In this document: positions 668 through 21,531 of the stretch, piece after piece
How positions within the stretch are numbered: the stretch's first letter is position 1
Layout of the letters: each line of letters opens with the position of its first letter
Source of the DNA: a virus
IMG/VR virus record: IMGVR_UViG_3300025543_000258
Location: 1 to 21,531 of that record
Strand: one strand, 5' to 3'
Length of the DNA stretch: 21,531 nt
Translations under genes and position numbers: made by a program
Notes under the pieces: model-generated
Seen by the model: only the letters and a program-made list of their open reading frames with translations
What the model was told of the DNA's origin: nothing
Databases searched by the model: none

Positions 668-761
668 GATCTGTTCTCCTGAGTTCTGTTTTAACACCCC
701 ACACAGTCTTTCGGCGGACGAAAGCGGCTGGGGCCAGAACGACAGGGGTCATCCACAAACT

Positions 762-774
762 GAGCAAAGCGAGG
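762..774 (+). repeat. Direct repeat GAGCAAAGCGAGG, copy 1
   Basis: Exact 13-base repeat of the sequence at 884-896; a divergent relative GAGCGTAGCGAG lies at 63-74. All three have the same orientation and lie in the G+C-rich flank. Confidence 0.6.
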
Positions 775-781
775 CTTGACG

Positions 782-826
782 TTCGCAAGGGGCCGAAGGG
801 CGAAGCGTACCCCTTGCGAATGTTTT
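782..826 (+). repeat. 11-bp inverted repeat, terminator-like
   Basis: Arms TTCGCAAGGGG (782-792) and CCCCTTGCGAA (810-820) are perfectly complementary around a 17-base loop and are followed by TGTTTT. On the plus strand this resembles an intrinsic terminator with a short T run; it could equally be one stem of a larger structured RNA. Confidence 0.45.
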
Positions 827-883
827 GGGGAATGAGCCATGACGGGCTGGAACCAGACGGTTTTGGCCGTTGAAAGACGCCCC

Positions 884-896
884 GAGCAAAGCGAGG
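884..896 (+). repeat. Direct repeat GAGCAAAGCGAGG, copy 2
   Basis: Exact 13-base match to 762-774, here in the context CCGAGCAAAGCGAGGGG. Confidence 0.6.
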
Positions 897-958
897 GGTG
901 TGTTCTTAAACCTGTGCGCATAGCGCTCATTCTTTCTCTTTTGGCATAGGGGGTCTAA

Positions 959-980
959 GGGGGACAGGCCAATGTCCCCC
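959..980. repeat. 8-bp perfect hairpin GGGGGACA/TGTCCCCC
   Basis: The stem is perfect with a 6-base loop (967-972). No T run follows on either strand, so it is not an obvious terminator. With the hairpin at 1011-1025 and the neighbouring CCC-GTA-GGG elements it suggests a folded RNA. Confidence 0.5.
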
Positions 981-1060
981 TGCGATAGGGATGGAAGCCC
1001 GTAGGGTGGAGACGCCAAGGGCGTCACCATTCACGACAGCCCGGCCCGTAAGGGATCGCC

Positions 1061-1089
1061 CTGTCAATGGCTAAACGAGGTACTATGAT
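1061..1089 (+). promoter_or_regulatory. Predicted sigma-70-type promoter ahead of the packaging operon
   Basis: CTGTCA (1061-1066; 4 of 6 consensus) and TATGAT (1084-1089; 5 of 6) are spaced by 17 bases, placing a start site near 1096, immediately before the palindrome at 1104-1118. A TTGACA (1122-1127) lies further down but lacks a convincing -10 box. Either could drive the rightward genes. Confidence 0.4.
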
Positions 1090-3337: not shown

Positions 3338-3534
3338 GCTTTATCAGTACGTTAAAGCCCATGGAGCTACAGATGCTTCGTGGCATTGTTCGTAAGACTG
3401 AGTTCGCTTACGTTGAGGCCAAGCACGGCAAGTCGTTTGTCACAGATCAAGAGTGCGACAAGCTAATTGAAAGCATAGGCCCAGAGGTCGTGCAGCGTAT
3501 GATTAAGTTCGGCGTGGATAAGGGACTGCGGTAG
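3334..3534 (+). CDS. Small hypothetical protein, 66 residues
   Basis: GTG start within GTGA over the previous stop; the stop overlaps the large-terminase start as TAGTG. The product is helical and mixed-charge (KPMELQMLRGIVRKTEFAYVE, then a DQECDKLIESIGPEVVQRMI helix). I do not recognise it. Its fixed place directly before the large terminase suggests a packaging or assembly role, but this is only positional inference. Confidence 0.6.
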   Translation: MSFISTLKPMELQMLRGIVRKTEFAYVEAKHGKSFVTDQECDKLIESIGPEVVQRMIKFGVDKGLR

Positions 3535-5057
3535 TGGTTGACTTCAAGTACAAGCCTGATGGCGATGTTCTCAAGGGCTTCATGAAGGACAACACTTTCT
3601 TTCGTGGCATACGCGGTCCCGTAGGTTCTGGAAAATCTGTTGCTTGCTGTGTAGAAGTATTCCGCCGCGCTCTGGAACAGAAGAAAGCGCCTGATGGCAG
3701 TCGGAAAAGTCGCTGGGCGATCATACGGAACACTAACCCACAGCTTAGAACAACGACGATTAAGACTTGGTTGGACTGGTTTCCAGAAGCTGACTGGGGA
3801 AAGTTTACTTGGTCAGTCCCATATACACACAACATAAAAAAAGGTGACATTGAACTTGAGGTTCTCTTCCTTGCACTTGACCGCCCAGAAGATGTCAAGA
3901 AACTCCTATCTTTGGAGCTTACTGGCATCTGGATTAATGAAGCGCGCGAAATACCTAAGAGTATTATTGATGCCTGTACTATGCGTGTGGGTCGTTATCC
4001 TTCTATGCGTGATGGCGGTCCTTCTTGGACTGGCGTCATTGCCGATACCAACGCTCCTGAAGAAGATCACTGGTGGCCGATTATGTCTGGAGAAGTACCA
4101 ATCCCGGATCATATACCGCGTGAGCAGGCTAAGATGCTGGTCAAACCAGATAACTGGAATTTCTTTACGCAGCCCGCTGGCATGGTCGAAAAGAAATCAG
4201 AAGAAGGCGAGATAGAGGATTACGTTCCCAGCAAAGAAGCTGAGAACCAGAAAAACATGATGAAGAGCTATTACCCTAACTTAGTACAGGGTAAAACTAA
4301 GTCTTGGATTGATGTGTATGTTATGAATAGACTAGGCCATATCCAAGAAGGAAAGCCTGTGTATCCAATGTTTGCAGCAGAAGTTCATGTCGCCAAGGAG
4401 GAAATACCTGTAGCAGCCAACGTGCCTCTGTATGTAGGCGTGGACTTTGGGCTAACTCCTGCCGCTGTTATAGGGCAAAAGGTGCGCGGAAGATGGTTTG
4501 TTCAGTCTGAGATCGTAGCTATCGACATGGGCATCGTTAGATTCTCTGAAGTTCTACGAGAAGAATTAGCGACTAGGTTCGCTGCCGCTGGAGAAGTCAT
4601 TATATTTGGCGATCCATCGGGTGATTTCCGCGCGCAAACTGATGAGTCAACTCCCTTTCACATCATGCGCGGAGCTGGCTTGAGGGCGTTCCCAGCGCCT
4701 TCCAACTCTGTTGACCTTCGACTTGAGGCTGTCTCCTCCCAGCTGACCAAGATGGTGGAAGGGAAGCCAGCGATGTTAATAGATCGGCGCTGTCAGCAGC
4801 TAATCAAGGGCTTTGATGGCGGCTATGCTTACAAGCGAATGGAAGTTTCTGGAGAAAGGTTTGCGGATAAACCTGACAAGAATATGTTTTCTCATGTTCA
4901 CGATGCAGCACAATACTTGTTTCTGGGTGCAGGCGAGGGCCGCGCTCTTATGAATAGTCAAAAGCCAGCCACTCCCACAGTGGCTAAACGTGACTTTGAT
5001 GTCTTCAATAAAGGCCCAGCCAAACGAAAACGGCAGGGGTTATGGGCGCGAATGTAG
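3534..5057 (+). CDS. terL: Terminase large subunit (packaging ATPase-nuclease)
   Basis: Motor that pumps DNA into the prohead and cuts the concatemer. The N-terminal ATPase has a Walker A GPVGSGKS (28-35) and a Walker B ending GIWINE (131-136, catalytic Glu136). The C-terminal RNase H-like nuclease shows the expected acidic residues: Asp304 in GVDFG, Asp360 in FGDPSGD and Asp457 in HVHDAA. At 507 residues it is of usual size for podovirus large terminases. It starts at GTG overlapping the previous stop by one base, so it is probably translated by coupling. It works with the small terminase at 1207 and docks on the portal at 5370. All key motifs are intact. Confidence 0.95.
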   Translation: MVDFKYKPDGDVLKGFMKDNTFFRGIRGPVGSGKSVACCVEVFRRALEQKKAPDGSRKSRWAIIRNTNPQLRTTTIKTWLDWFPEADWGKFTWSVPYTHNIKKGDIELEVLFLALDRPEDVKKLLSLELTGIWINEAREIPKSIIDACTMRVGRYPSMRDGGPSWTGVIADTNAPEEDHWWPIMSGEVPIPDHIPREQAKMLVKPDNWNFFTQPAGMVEKKSEEGEIEDYVPSKEAENQKNMMKSYYPNLVQGKTKSWIDVYVMNRLGHIQEGKPVYPMFAAEVHVAKEEIPVAANVPLYVGVDFGLTPAAVIGQKVRGRWFVQSEIVAIDMGIVRFSEVLREELATRFAAAGEVIIFGDPSGDFRAQTDESTPFHIMRGAGLRAFPAPSNSVDLRLEAVSSQLTKMVEGKPAMLIDRRCQQLIKGFDGGYAYKRMEVSGERFADKPDKNMFSHVHDAAQYLFLGAGEGRALMNSQKPATPTVAKRDFDVFNKGPAKRKRQGLWARM

Positions 5058-5118: not shown

Positions 5119-5370
5119 ATGTGTTTTGGTGGTGGCGGTGGCCCTAGTCAAGAAGAGAAGCAAGTATCTGTAGATCAGTCACTTGAAGCTGATGCTGCAA
5201 AGCGTGAGTCAGCAGAAGAGGCAGCTAAGGTAAAGCGTGAAGATATTGGCGAAGCTCTTGAGGCTCGACGTGCTGGCGAGGGACGAGGCAGCGGTGGTGG
5301 GCGTGGACGTAGATCTTTGTTCCGTAGCGGCGGAACTGGAGCAGGATTTATTGGTAGGTTCAATCAGTAA
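5119..5370 (+). CDS. Gly-rich MCFGG protein, 83 residues
   Basis: Begins MCFGGGGGPS, has a charged Glu/Ala/Lys helix in the middle (about 15-50) and a Gly/Arg-rich C-terminus with RRSLFRSGG and ending GFIGRFNQ. This head-helix-RRSLF-GRF layout recurs directly upstream of portal genes in marine podoviruses, but no function is known to me; a head-tail assembly or capsid-interior role is inferred from position. Start is well supported by AAGGAG. The stop overlaps the portal start as TAATG. It shares its N-terminal MCFGG and the RRSL motif with the 62-residue protein at 2396. Confidence 0.75.
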   Translation: MCFGGGGGPSQEEKQVSVDQSLEADAAKRESAEEAAKVKREDIGEALEARRAGEGRGSGGGRGRRSLFRSGGTGAGFIGRFNQ

Positions 5371-8484: not shown

Positions 8485-9294
8485 ATGGCTAATACTATCG
8501 ACCAAGCCTTCATCAAGCAGTTCGAAACAGAAGTACATTTGGCGTATCAGCGTATGGGGTCTAAGCTCCGCAATACTGTTCGTTCGTCAAACGTCACTGG
8601 TTCGGTTGCTCGTTTCCAAGTAATTGGTAAAGGCGCTGCAAACACTAAAACTCGTAACGGTGATGTCACCGCTATGGAACTCGTACACACCAATGTCGAA
8701 GCTACTATGGCTGACTTTTACGCTCCAGAGTACATCGACAAGCTAGACGAATTGAAGATCAACATTAATGAGCGTCAAGCTGTAGCACAATCTGCTGCTG
8801 CCGCTCTGGGTCGCAAGACAGATGAGATCCTTATTACAGCTATGGATGCTGGTGCAAACTCAACTCAGATCGCTGACACCGCTGGTGCATTGGTCAAGGC
8901 TGACTTGCTTACATTGTTCTCCACATTCGGCGCAGCCGACATTCCAGAAGATGGCCAACGCTATCTTGCTATGTCTCCTGCTGGTTTTGCTGACTTGTTC
9001 TCTATCAACGAGTTTGCATCGTCCGACTATGTAGGGCCACAGAACCTGCCATTCGCAGGCGGCATGACAATGAAAGAGTTCTTGGGCTTCAAGATCTTCT
9101 CAACGTCTGCTGTAGCTGGTGGTAAGAACTTTGCGTATCACACATCCTCAATTGGTCTTGGCATTAACGCCGATGTGACTACTGAGGTAAACTATGTACC
9201 GCAAAAAGTATCACACCTTGCAACTTCTATGATGTCCATGGGCGCTGTCGTTATTGATGACGACGGTATCTATGAAGTCTTAGATAACAACTAA
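8485..9294 (+). CDS. Major capsid protein
   Basis: Forms the icosahedral shell (HK97 fold expected). The 269-residue product starts MANTIDQAFIKQFETEVHLA, a form typical of T7-like and marine podovirus capsid proteins, with AYQRMGSKLRNTV near 20-32, a central Ala-rich spine-type helix (SAAAALGRKTDEILITAMDAGA) and a C-terminal half rich in Gly and beta-type segments (GGMTMKEFLGFKIFSTSAV). It is shorter than T7 gp10A (345). AAGGA seven bases before the ATG fits high expression, and a hairpin closes the gene. Codons look more uniform than in neighbours, as usual for a highly expressed gene. Position directly after scaffold and before tail-tube A supports the call. Confidence 0.92.
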   Translation: MANTIDQAFIKQFETEVHLAYQRMGSKLRNTVRSSNVTGSVARFQVIGKGAANTKTRNGDVTAMELVHTNVEATMADFYAPEYIDKLDELKININERQAVAQSAAAALGRKTDEILITAMDAGANSTQIADTAGALVKADLLTLFSTFGAADIPEDGQRYLAMSPAGFADLFSINEFASSDYVGPQNLPFAGGMTMKEFLGFKIFSTSAVAGGKNFAYHTSSIGLGINADVTTEVNYVPQKVSHLATSMMSMGAVVIDDDGIYEVLDNN

Positions 9295-15967: not shown

Positions 15968-18900
15968 TTGGCAGAGCTAAACGTACCTCCGCGCAAAGAC
16001 TACAAGGTTGGACCAAGGCCACCAGCAGACGTTAGCGTAAGCCTTGGTCAAACTCTTGGCGCTCAGTATTCTAATATCTTTAGCCCAATATCTGAGGGGC
16101 TTTCTTTCTATGGCGGCAACCAAGATAGCTATGATCCTGACTCAATTCAGAATGTAGAAGACCTGATTAAAGAGTTTGGTTTTGAGGGGACAGACGCAAG
16201 CTACCTAAGAACTTATGGGATAGGCTCTCAAGAAAACTTGCAAGCTGCATTGTCCTATATAGATAAGCGCGGAGAGAATAGAGAAGTATTAGCTCAGTCA
16301 TCTGGTGCTGCTTTGTTTGTTACTGACCCTTCTTTGCTTGCATCTGTTGCTATACCTTATTTTGGCATAGCTATTACTGGAAGGTCAGCCTCATTAGTAA
16401 ACTCTCTTTCTTCATCTTCTGCATTGAACCAAGCGCTAAAGGCAAGAGAAGTATTGCGAGGTGGTGCAAATATTGATGATGTTATCTACAGGGCAAGCCA
16501 AGGCGCAAAGACTAGTTTAGATGGACCTCGCGTTGCTAAGTCTAAAGTAAAATACGATACTAATGCTGAAGAGTTTATAAGATTAAGTGACGGTTCTGCG
16601 CTTAGAGTTGGCAAGAAAGGTTCTTTTGATGATGGGATTTACAATGCTCAAACTGTATATAACGCAAAGACTTTAGCTAAACTTGGCGCATTAGATGCTG
16701 CTGTTGTCGATGGCAGCGTTTCCTTAACTGAAGCTATGACTCAGATTAGTGAGGGCAAAGACCCTATAGAAGAGATAGCAAATGCAGCGCTATACACTTC
16801 AGCGTCTACTGCTATTGGCAGTATGCTTGGTTATGGAATTGGAAGCGCGTTAACTAGACCTAAGAACGCTGCTACGCGAACTGCTACATTTAACAATGCC
16901 TATAAAGAATACTTAAAAAGTGTTTCGAGTACGCCCCCTCAAACAGATGAGGGCTTGTCGCTTGCTGGAAAATGGTTCAACGACTCTTGGTTTATGAGGG
17001 CCATTCCGTCCATTCTTCGAACAACGCTTAGAGATAAAGAGCTGCCTGATTTTGCCAAGCTAGATATACTTGGCGTTATGGGTGACAATGGTATGCCTTT
17101 GGCTATGAACCAAATGAATAGAAGCGTTGGATCTTCTGTTGCTGTTAAAGCGGCGCGGCGTCAGGGCGACTGGTTTAAAGCCCTTGATGTTATCAATACT
17201 AACTATAGAGAAGTAAGCCCTAGGGGTAACGCTCAGTTTCTTAACGTGCCTGTAGGCGAGTATGTAGAAAAGGTTCGCCGTAAGGTAGGCGCAAGTAGCT
17301 TTGCGCCTGATGAATGGTACAATCACATTGGCCGACTAATGGTTGATGAGGTTCCGTTTGAAAAGATGACGCCGCAAGAGGCCGCATCTGTGCAGGCTGC
17401 TAGAAGTTTCTTTGATAAGTACGGCAAAGAACTTGAGGAGCTTGGCCTTATCAATGCAAGGGATGTCTTTGATACAACCTTTGATAAAGCGACTGGCAAC
17501 CTGTCTCGGCTTGAGAGTTTAACTGAAAACATTATTGAGCAAAACAGACGTTGGATGACTCCACAGTTAAGAGAAAGCATTAGGAAGATTGAAGAGCTTA
17601 ATGGCAAGCTGTCTTCTTTGAACAAGACTGCAACAACGCGAGGCCTAACAAACAGACAGCTAAAGTTTCAAAAGGATTTAGAAAGAGAAGTTGCGGGTCA
17701 TATAGAAGTTAGAGATAAGTTTGAGGCTTATTTCTCAGCTATTGATTCAGCGAAGAATGTAGATGATCTAGCTAATTTGTATAACAAGCTGGACCTTACT
17801 CCAGATATGCAATTTGCTTTAAAAGATCTTGCTGGCTCTTTAACAGAAGCAAGAGCTAAAGTTGCAAATGTTCAGGAAATGCTAGACAGAGCGCCTGCAA
17901 CAGCAAGTCAGAACAGCTACCTTACCCGCATATACAATCGCAGAAAGATTACAAAGGACAGGGATGCCTTCCGTAAGATTCTAGTTGATTGGTTTAGAGA
18001 AAACCCTGAGCAAATTGTTAAGGGTGATGATGGCTTGTTTAAGGTGCAGAAGCTAAACACTGATGAAGATTCCCTCATTGCTCGGGCAAATAGAACTATA
18101 GATAACATTCTTGGAGAAACTGACGAAGACGCAATTGATGCAATCTTTACAGGTATAGGTAGAAGCGGTCCTCTTATTTCTAAGCGCCTTAACATACCCA
18201 ATAAACTGATAAAGGACTTTATTGTTACCGACATTAAAGAGGTAATGATTGCTTATACAAACAGAGTAGCGCCAAAGATTGAGTACCATTCTAAGTTTCG
18301 ACATCCAGAGACCGGAAAACTTATGTCTCTTGAAAGCAGAATTAGTTACTACCGCGAAAGGCTTGCTTCTGAAGGAGTCAGCGAGAAAAAGATTGATGAA
18401 TACATTAAGAACTTTGTTGCATCCTATGACTTAGTTGTTGGGTCTACGCTTAAACGTACAGATGCTATTGATACGAAGGCTGCTGACGCTTTAAGAACAG
18501 CTACAAGCTGGACGTTTCTTGGTAGCTCTGGCGTTGCTGCAATGGGGGACGCGGCTTCAATATTCATGGATCATGAGCTTAATGTAATCGGTCGATCCTT
18601 TCTTGGAATGATGGATGACGTTTCGTTAAAGATGTCTACAAGAGAGCTTCAGTTAGCTGGTGAGGCTTTGGAGATTGTTCGAGGAACTACTCACCTTAAA
18701 TACCTTGAGAGCTTAACTAACGATGCGTTTAGCAAGACGCTGCCTGATAAGTTAAACAACGCCTTCTACATTCTAAACGGCCTTGCTCCGGTTACAGTTG
18801 CTATCAAATCCCTTGATGGATTGCTTCGAGGTCATACAATCATTGAGGCTTCAAATCGTTTGATTGATGGCACTGCCAGTAAGTTTGAGAAAGAGTTTCT

Positions 18901-19806: not shown

Positions 19807-21531
19807 ATGACAATTGATATTTCAAACAACGCAGCCCGAGTTAATTACACAGTTGCATTCGGGGTTACTCAAACCTCTTTCTCTGTACCTTTTGAGTTCT
19901 TCAATGACAGCGACCTGAGTGTTTACCTGAATGGTGTGCTGCAAACTATCACAACTCATTACACAGTTAGCGGTGGTGACGGATCTACAGGCACAGTAAC
20001 AACGTCTGTGACGGGAGTGTCAGGCGGATCAACTGTCGTTATTTCTCGTAGCATTGCTATTGAAAGAACGTCAGACTTCCAGACAGGCGTAGACATTAAC
20101 CGCGCTGCTCTTAACACACAGCTAGATACGCTTACCGCTATTGCTGCTGATAACGAAGATAAGGCTAGCCGCTCTATCTCTGCGCCTAACTCAGAGGTTA
20201 ATCCAGTTCTTGAGTTGCCAGACGCAGACACACGCAAGGGCAAACTTATTGGCTTTAATGAAACAAGCGGTAATGTTGAGCTAAGTGCAACTCTTGCTGA
20301 TGGTAATACCTTAGCGTCTATCTCCAGTGACATAGCAACGCTTGCTGACATTGAGGACGGAACAGATGCGACTGACGCTATACAAACTGTTGCTGGCATT
20401 TCATCTAACGTAACTACAGTCGCAGGCGTTTCTGCTAATGTAACTACAGTTGCAGGCAATACTACAAACATAAATACGGTTGCAGGAAACAATGCTAACA
20501 TTACAACTGTTGCTGGTATAGACAGTGACGTAACTACTGTATCGGGTATATCTTCTGATGTAACTACTGTTGCTGCTGACGGCACTGATATTGGTGTGGT
20601 TGCTGGAATTAGTTCTAATGTAACTACTGTGTCTGGTATTTCTTCTGATGTAACAACTGTATCAGGTATTAACGGTGCTGTTAGCTCAGTGGCTTCTGAT
20701 GCAGCAAATATCGGTGTAGTATCGTCAAACATATCTGACGTTAATACCGTTTCAAACAACATTTCTTCTGTAAATACAAACGCAACAAACATTTCAGACA
20801 TTCAGAACGCTTCTACTAATGCTGCAACTGCAACTACTAAAGCAGGAGAGGCTGCTACAAGCGCAACTACAGCGACAACACAGGCTGGTATAGCAACAAC
20901 TAAAGCAAGTGAGGCGTCTGCTTCTGAGGTTGCTGCTGAGGAAGCTAAGGTTGCGGCTGAGGCTGCGCTTGATGAGTTTACAGACATCTATCTCGGGGCT
21001 AAGGCTTCAGATCCCACAACAGATAATGATGGAAATGCTCTGACTGCTGGTGACCAGTACTTTAATACAACAACAAACATATTAAAGATCTATAATGGCT
21101 CCTCTTGGCAATCTGCTGCTATTGATAGCTCAGGCTTTGTCGAGACCACTGGCGACACGATGACGGGCGATCTGTCCTTCGGTGACAACGACAAGGCTAT
21201 CTTTGGTGCTGGCAGTGATCTTGCTGTATTCAGTAATGGAACCGACAGTTTTATTCAGGAATATACAACTGGTGGTCACCTTTATGTTGATGCAACGAAT
21301 GTTCGCATTAGGAATAGAAACGATAATACACTTAGGCTTCAAACATCAGATAGTGGTGCTGTTGATTTGTATTACTCAGGTTCAGCCAAACTAGCCACCA
21401 CCGCCACAGGCGTAGACATCACGGGTACTTTGACCAGCGATTCGCTGACTGTGGATGGTGAAGGGATAATATCTAGCGCAACAACTGCAACAAACTTATC
21501 TAATCCGATTTTGCAACTTACTGGATCAAGC
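19807..21531 (+). CDS. Tail fibre protein, T7 gp17-type N-terminus (cut by window end)
   Basis: Receptor-binding fibre attached to the tail. The ATG at 19807 opens 575 codons with no stop before the window edge. Residues 1-120 match the gp17-type adaptor that anchors fibres to the tail: a VNYTVAFGVTQTSFSVPFEF segment (13-32), LSVYLNGVLQT, then VVISRSIAIERTSDFQ and RAALNTQLDTLTAIAADNED. Residues 194-333 are fourteen tandem 10-residue units (T-V-A/S-G-x-x-x-N/D-V-T). An Ala/Thr/Lys helical spacer (about 334-395) follows, then a YLGAKASDPTTDNDGNAL domain and a beta-structured region with ETTGDTMTGDLSF and DITGTLTSDSLTV, motifs common in fibre shafts. The C-terminal tip, which normally decides host range, lies beyond the window. 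Confidence 0.9.
   Translation, partial: MTIDISNNAARVNYTVAFGVTQTSFSVPFEFFNDSDLSVYLNGVLQTITTHYTVSGGDGSTGTVTTSVTGVSGGSTVVISRSIAIERTSDFQTGVDINRAALNTQLDTLTAIAADNEDKASRSISAPNSEVNPVLELPDADTRKGKLIGFNETSGNVELSATLADGNTLASISSDIATLADIEDGTDATDAIQTVAGISSNVTTVAGVSANVTTVAGNTTNINTVAGNNANITTVAGIDSDVTTVSGISSDVTTVAADGTDIGVVAGISSNVTTVSGISSDVTTVSGINGAVSSVASDAANIGVVSSNISDVNTVSNNISSVNTNATNISDIQNASTNAATATTKAGEAATSATTATTQAGIATTKASEASASEVAAEEAKVAAEAALDEFTDIYLGAKASDPTTDNDGNALTAGDQYFNTTTNILKIYNGSSWQSAAIDSSGFVETTGDTMTGDLSFGDNDKAIFGAGSDLAVFSNGTDSFIQEYTTGGHLYVDATNVRIRNRNDNTLRLQTSDSGAVDLYYSGSAKLATTATGVDITGTLTSDSLTVDGEGIISSATTATNLSNPILQLTGSS
20386..20805 (+). repeat. Fourteen tandem 30-bp repeats in the tail fibre
   Basis: The region divides exactly into 14 units of 30 bases encoding TVAGISSNVT-like decapeptides. 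Units 1-6 and 8-10 are close to consensus (for example TVAGISSNVT, TVSGISSDVT); units 7 and 11-14 are degenerate (TVAADGTDIG, TNATNISDIQ). The regular V/I spacing suggests a trimeric beta-type or coiled shaft. Confidence 0.85.

Follow-up and report, generated by a model that had tools for sequence, protein, structure and literature searches.

What is the role of a hairpin-rich, non-coding stretch that separates the early and late genes of a tailed phage? The window, i.e. the complete 21,531-nt stretch of a metagenomic virus record that was analyzed here, carries the late gene block of a tailed phage on its + strand, with TerS at 1207, TerL at 3534, portal at 5370 and capsid at 8485 (Pfam, PHROG). 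The gene of the small terminase subunit (TerS; 1207-1587, +; Pfam Terminase_2 2.7e-6, PHROG 2538 1.9e-14) is the first of this rightward block, and the first leftward early gene (p180; 155-667, -) is an ORF with its ATG at 667 and the Shine-Dalgarno sequence AGGAG at 676-680. Between them lies region 668-1080. It is non-coding and, with a G+C content of 0.579 compared with 0.452 for positions 1207-21531, clearly richer in G+C than the phage genes; on both points the first-pass annotation was right.

The early gene encodes a 170-aa protein of unknown family that matched neither Pfam nor PHROG families and found no counterpart in plasmids. Its relatives are located in other viral contigs (L004, 97%; L005, 79%; L139, 59%; L070, L075 and L088, 36%), and its AlphaFold model is mostly helical, of moderate confidence (pLDDT 72) and not informative. 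Toward the terminase gene, the palindromes GGTACTATGATACC (1079-1092) and GTGACGCTACGTCAC (1104-1118) are followed by a TTGACA box (1122-1127) that points to TerS. Similar sites with small changes are present in L005 and L139, and a sigma70-type consensus scan of 1079-1127 gave weak scores. Judged from its sequence, this stretch is likely an ordinary dsDNA control region, and positions 1080-1110 may contain a duplex promoter of the early operon. The two palindromes resemble operators of a repressor, placed between an early and a late promoter that diverge.

A long hairpin specific to the + strand

Five hairpins had been listed for the intergenic region (708-724, 782-820, 916-926, 959-980 and 1011-1025). 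All of them are present in the sequence, but the picture of a field of small hairpins is incomplete, as two larger structures absorb several of them. The hairpins at 708-724 and 782-820 are parts of a single imperfect stem (about 74 bp; 701-903, +), and the one at 1011-1025 is a single helix of a larger structured element that we named R1 (982-1059, +). Folded as + strand DNA, the 413 nt of the region reach -95.4 kcal/mol (z -5.69), a value that none of 100 dinucleotide shuffles equaled.

The long Frpo-like hairpin comprises a perfect apical stem (779-792/810-823) and a side hairpin (880-898). The fold of positions 690-910 is strand-specific: the + strand has a z-score of -7.56 with none of 200 shuffles as good, and the - strand one of only -2.54. 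The folded + strand is the template strand for the leftward operon, and a single giant hairpin was likewise recovered on the T-strand of F Frpo1/2 and ColIb-P9, which served as positive controls. The disappearance of the hairpins in close relatives, named beforehand as an outcome that would speak against a functional structure, was not observed. L139, L005, L095, L088 and L037 retain the long hairpin with + strand z-scores from -4.6 to -8.9 and weaker values on the other strand. A comparison of L139 with the window shows that 14 of the 18 changed hairpin pairs are preserved, seven of them by a double change; the single-sided changes that preserve a pair do so as G.T on the + strand, where the - strand would have A.C. 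In related phages, nearly all of the folded regions preceding TerS had the better fold as + strand, although these relatives are not independent of each other. Four R1-bearing contigs (L170, L171, L174 and L161) showed no single long hairpin on folding.

The right arm of the hairpin contains promoter-like boxes on the + strand (814-843), namely TTGCGA (814-819) and, after 18 nt, CATGAC (838-843), which point, within the folded strand, toward the leftward gene. Their agreement with sigma70 is weak (7/12), and the stems of F and ColIb score no better in the same scan. Box-like hexamers occupy the same place of the right arm in L075 (TTGACA-17-CATGAC), and similar ones are found in L070, L037, L095 and L004. 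A further G5/C5 hairpin AGGGGGACA..TGTCCCCCT (958-981, +) directly abuts R1 and has counterparts in L095 (GGGGGATTG/CAATCCCCC) and L037 (GGGGGAATC/GATTCCCCC).

R1 is a covarying structural element

R1 consists of a core surrounded by an outer helix, with the helices designated P1, P1b, P2 and P3. The 5' arm of the outer helix P1 (GCGAT; 982-986, +) covaries with the 3' arm ATCGC (1055-1059, +), which is followed by a conserved CC. The core (987-1044, +) harbors P1b (GGGATX/YAGCCC), P2 (CCC-GTA-GGG) and P3 together with the conserved motifs GAAG, AGAC and TTCACGA, and between core and 3' arm lies the variable hairpin P4 (CCC-GTAA-GGG; 1045-1054, +), whose length differs between instances. An alignment of phage, plasmid and chromosome instances yielded a 57-nt core consensus with three helices, aGGGATxGAAGCCCGnAGGGyxxAGAC-stem-GGCTxxrTTCACGAyAGCCCg. 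The window sequence matches a covariance model (CM) of R1 with 72.6 bits and an E-value of 6e-17; E-values of this home-made model are rough, and the 25 sequences of the model include the window.

Covariation among homologues, suggested as a check in the first-pass annotation, is strong. Across 72 distinct CM matches the covariation score is 0.424, compared with 0.115 after shuffling and at most 0.05 in slid controls, and 194 pair cells are changed on both sides compared with 59 in the shuffles. For the outer helix, a generic longest-helix test was uninformative and an anchored test was used instead: the two P1 arms of an instance match each other in 35 of 48 distinct cases (1000 shuffles: mean 12.1, maximum 21), with variants such as GCGTC/GACGC, GCGAT/ATCGC, GCGTT/AACGC and GCGCA/TGCGC. 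Because the CM fit can bias pair counts, we also checked 117 instances found with a fixed pattern, in which 97.4% of the free pairs form compared with 63.8% in shuffled sequences. Wobble pairs are rare in this set (6 G.T and 7 A.C of 702), a scarcity that is unusual for RNA, and their near-equal numbers do not tell the strand. An apparent + strand bias in the balance of G.T and A.C pairs, seen in the CM-fitted alignment, did not recur in the pattern-found set and was hence not used for R1. The proposed Rfam search retrieved no family for R1 in Rfam 15, neither at the gathering score nor at E<=1, and a search of the open-access literature with the motif sequence returned unrelated papers only. 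We accordingly judge R1 to be new relative to these two sources.

R1 in conjugative plasmids and bacterial genomes

The stretches GATGGAAGCCCGTAGGG and CACGACAGCCCGGCCCG had been likened to intergenic DNA of proteobacterial plasmids and genomic islands, and this comparison proved correct, with many matches in plasmids and genomes. In a blastn search with positions 1-1900 of the window, 981-1061 matched 1821 plasmid records with about 76% identity, representing one strong class of relatives, and the short R1 query alone retrieved 3962 plasmids, 3005 of which are typed as conjugative. Plasmid F harbors R1 exactly twice, in the leading region and on the transferred strand (T-strand). Both copies are located within a 559-bp direct repeat (89% identical) that precedes the ssb and the ygeA/DUF932 genes, and the two repeat sites correspond to Frpo2 and Frpo1. 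These loci are needed in vivo for early expression of leading genes and have been proposed as ssDNA promoters (PMC9849209); F Frpo has been described as a 328 bp stem-loop with -10 and -35 boxes recognized by RNA polymerase (PMC8744291, PMC9849209), which yields primers besides mRNA (Masai and Arai 1997, as cited in PMC7736820).

The parallels between F Frpo1/Frpo2 (ssiD) and the window extend beyond the R1 motif within the repeat. A long imperfect T-strand hairpin lies between R1 and the gene, the operon reads away, and a DUF932 gene follows, which is located downstream of the element both in the phage lineage (early operon of the close relative L004, 1831-2679) and in the F leading region (L021:16439-17260). 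Homology is limited to the R1 part (981-1061, ~76%), whereas none was detected between the two hairpin sequences, and the dimensions differ as well: R1 is 437 and 477 nt away from the gene in F but about 290-320 nt in the window, and the F hairpins measure 115-126 bp compared with 74 bp. Moreover, F Frpo is carried by a conjugative plasmid, whereas the carrier here is a dsDNA phage in which no conjugation genes were seen. Phage-borne Frpo was not described in any paper found in the open-access literature.

Plasmid ColIb-P9 provides a second comparison. The established ssDNA (ssi) promoters of its leading region, upstream of ssb and ardA, form giant T-strand hairpins of 127-129 bp (z -10.0 and -4.2) like that of the window, but a search for R1 in this plasmid found none. 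This rules out that R1 is the Frpo promoter itself; it is separable from the hairpin, is not required for an Frpo-type promoter, and is a companion of the promoter hairpin rather than a synonym. In R388 (L241), two equal-scoring partial R1-like matches (20095-20128 and 24101-24134) lie 4 kb apart, one of them upstream of ardC; this plasmid may hold duplicated ssDNA initiation modules.

R1 is also present in 21 of 399 sampled Pseudomonadota genomes. Twenty loci were inspected, and at about half of them R1 is followed by a gene that points away from it and encodes ArdC (6), ArdA (1), SSB (1), DUF932 (2; directly after R1 in G386 and G202) or a ParB-like protein (1), the repertoire known from leading regions (PMC11541004, PMC7736820). 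A further instance of R1, in an assembly of Streptomyces morookaense (NZ_JABBXF010000124), has enterobacterial-type flanks and likely stems from a contaminating enterobacterial plasmid contig.

R1 in tailed phages

R1 was found in about 130 viral contigs, Microviridae included. The first set of tailed phages comprises L004, L070, L075, L076, L088, L089, L095, L167-171, L174 and L175, with weaker matches in L159-161, L165, L166, L037, L041, L098 and L173. Here R1 is always located upstream of TerS and on the TerS strand or, in contigs covering the early side only, on the strand opposite to DUF932. A pattern search found 33 further TerS contigs, a few of which overlap the first set, with TerS to the right of R1 and in the same sense in 30 of the 33; the exceptions are L268, L271 and L297. 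L268 and L271 form a subgroup in which R1 adjoins TerS but on the opposite strand, thus breaking the orientation rule. In most related tailed phages, R1 is accordingly placed between early operon and small terminase gene in one, largely fixed orientation, although the relatives compared are phylogenetically dependent. Their leftward operon encodes DUF932, a Holliday-junction resolvase, YqaJ, an exonuclease and an O-like initiator, and those of L310 and L367 additionally encode ArdC and SSB. A Pfam search detected no SSB in the 12 records covered, and the host SSB could serve instead.

L005 and L139 retain P1 and P3 with a degenerate R1 core, which indicates that R1 can decay while the hairpin stays. 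The stretch around TerS of Pelagibacter phage Hodr, the nearest annotated isolate by TerL, is free of R1. On the 38-kb 'virus' contig L007 (IMGVR 3300020181_000021), five R1 matches fall into a stretch of 8 kb near Rad52-like and Dam genes; this contig is possibly not a phage but a conjugative element.

R1 in Microviridae

An initial scan of viral sequences gave three contigs, of which L006 and L008 represent one microvirus (Phage_F 8e-50, Phage_GPA; 100% overlap). Altogether, R1 is present in five Microviridae genomes, namely L006 (IMGVR 3300005527_003615) and, with scores of 66-80 bits, L300, L342, Gokushovirus KT264808 (1608-1668) and MH572438 (2710-2769). It is intergenic and consistently located on the strand that encodes the genes. 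As this is generally the virion strand in Microviridae (PMC3394797), R1 belongs to the DNA strand that is packaged and later injected. Its distribution is patchy, as six microviruses close to L342 by capsid lack R1.

The microviral loci share the core, the covarying outer helix and, in L006, L300 and L342, a hairpin 5' of R1 with the window, but they differ in their ssDNA genomes and in genes that have the same sense as R1. This common sense excludes a promoter role for microviral genes from the virion strand. The microviruses thus speak for a priming or stabilizing role, at least of R1, that needs no downstream gene.

Proposed function and alternative explanations

Taken together, the homology of R1, its covariation, the strand-specific fold and the conserved placement make it probable that the region is an Frpo/ssi-type module for initiation on ssDNA, by transcription and/or priming, which heads the early operon. 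The + strand would become exposed as ssDNA at some stage, be it at a replication fork, by end resection or by supercoil-driven extrusion. It would then fold into the long hairpin (701-903), whose arms may mimic a leftward duplex promoter, and the junction-like R1 (982-1059), which may act as a protein-binding or priming site. Host RNA polymerase, or a primase, could initiate at the folded strand and produce, by leftward transcription, an early mRNA of the 170-aa gene followed by DUF932 and the recombination and replication genes; RNA from the hairpin could also, or instead, prime second-strand synthesis. Hairpin promoters are known from phage N4, where short ones are used at the start of infection by the phage's own virion RNA polymerase; the putative promoter hairpin in the window is long.

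The most serious alternative, clearly less probable than the module just described, is a complementary-strand (lagging-strand) origin of the ssi type that would only prime DNA synthesis on the displaced + strand and would not be an early promoter, with R1 as the priming site of a primase, the primosome or RNA polymerase. In the complementary-strand origins of G4 and M13, folded ssDNA recruits a priming enzyme. Microviral genes are encoded by the virion strand, from which an ssDNA promoter could not produce mRNA; nevertheless, R1 with a hairpin close by is found on this strand. Primer formation by Frpo, the O-like initiator encoded by a related phage and a shift of the GC skew at the element also fit. 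However, the G4 origin has no R1 match near 3970-4000, and the element heads an operon that reads away from it in F, at about half of the inspected genome loci and in most tailed phages.

A structured RNA was one of the initial proposals for this region; it would be the leader at the 5' end of an early transcript running left (- strand) or a small RNA of + sense. The covarying structure stands, but its RNA nature is improbable. A leftward transcript across the region could arise from the palindromic control sequences at 1079-1118, and a + sense RNA would be compatible with the folding. On the other hand, the hairpin is much weaker on the - strand, where changes tolerated by the + strand disrupt it, and R1 has almost none of the wobble pairs that are common in RNA helices. 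The RNA reading is further disfavored by the lack of any Rfam match, by conservation on the strand that is single-stranded during conjugation and in Microviridae virions, and by homologues within the F repeats characterized as ssDNA promoters.

A site acting at the dsDNA level, such as a packaging site (pac/cos) or a protein-binding palindrome beside TerS, would suit the position immediately in front of TerS that the element has in the majority of related phages. It is very improbable, as the element also occurs in conjugative plasmids, ICE-like loci and Microviridae, all of which do without this terminase for packaging or transfer, and as a strand-biased fold with compensatory changes is unexpected for a duplex site. 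Finally, the step in G+C content (0.58 compared with 0.45) might hint at a plasmid/phage assembly chimera or a recent mobile insertion, but this idea can practically be dismissed: independent contigs (L004, L005, L139, L095, L088 and dozens more) carry the region in the same layout between early genes and TerS, so that the region is not an assembly artefact, and the mobile-element origin considered initially is unsupported for what is a fixed component of the phage lineage.

The preferred reading, an initiation module acting on ssDNA, suggests by analogy with plasmids that a dsDNA phage, too, may start gene expression or DNA copying from ssDNA. In conjugation, ssDNA promoters are known to allow expression of anti-defense genes before the incoming strand is duplex. 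More tentatively, R1 might be a general ssDNA initiation signal common to conjugative plasmids, ICEs, ssDNA microviruses and dsDNA tailed phages, the latter having a programmed ssDNA stage in which they express early (counter-defense, recombination) genes or prime second strands. The occurrence of one folded element in dsDNA phages and on the virion strand of microviruses implies that a single ssDNA signal recognized by the host may serve several kinds of invading DNA. The R1 covariance model can help to locate early and anti-defense operons in unannotated plasmids, ICEs and phages, and the small phage genomes make the question of what recognizes leading-region ssDNA testable.

Far from the module, at 17071-17164 of the window, ARAGORN reported a tRNA-His (atg anticodon) within a 1254-aa ORF, which is probably a false positive.
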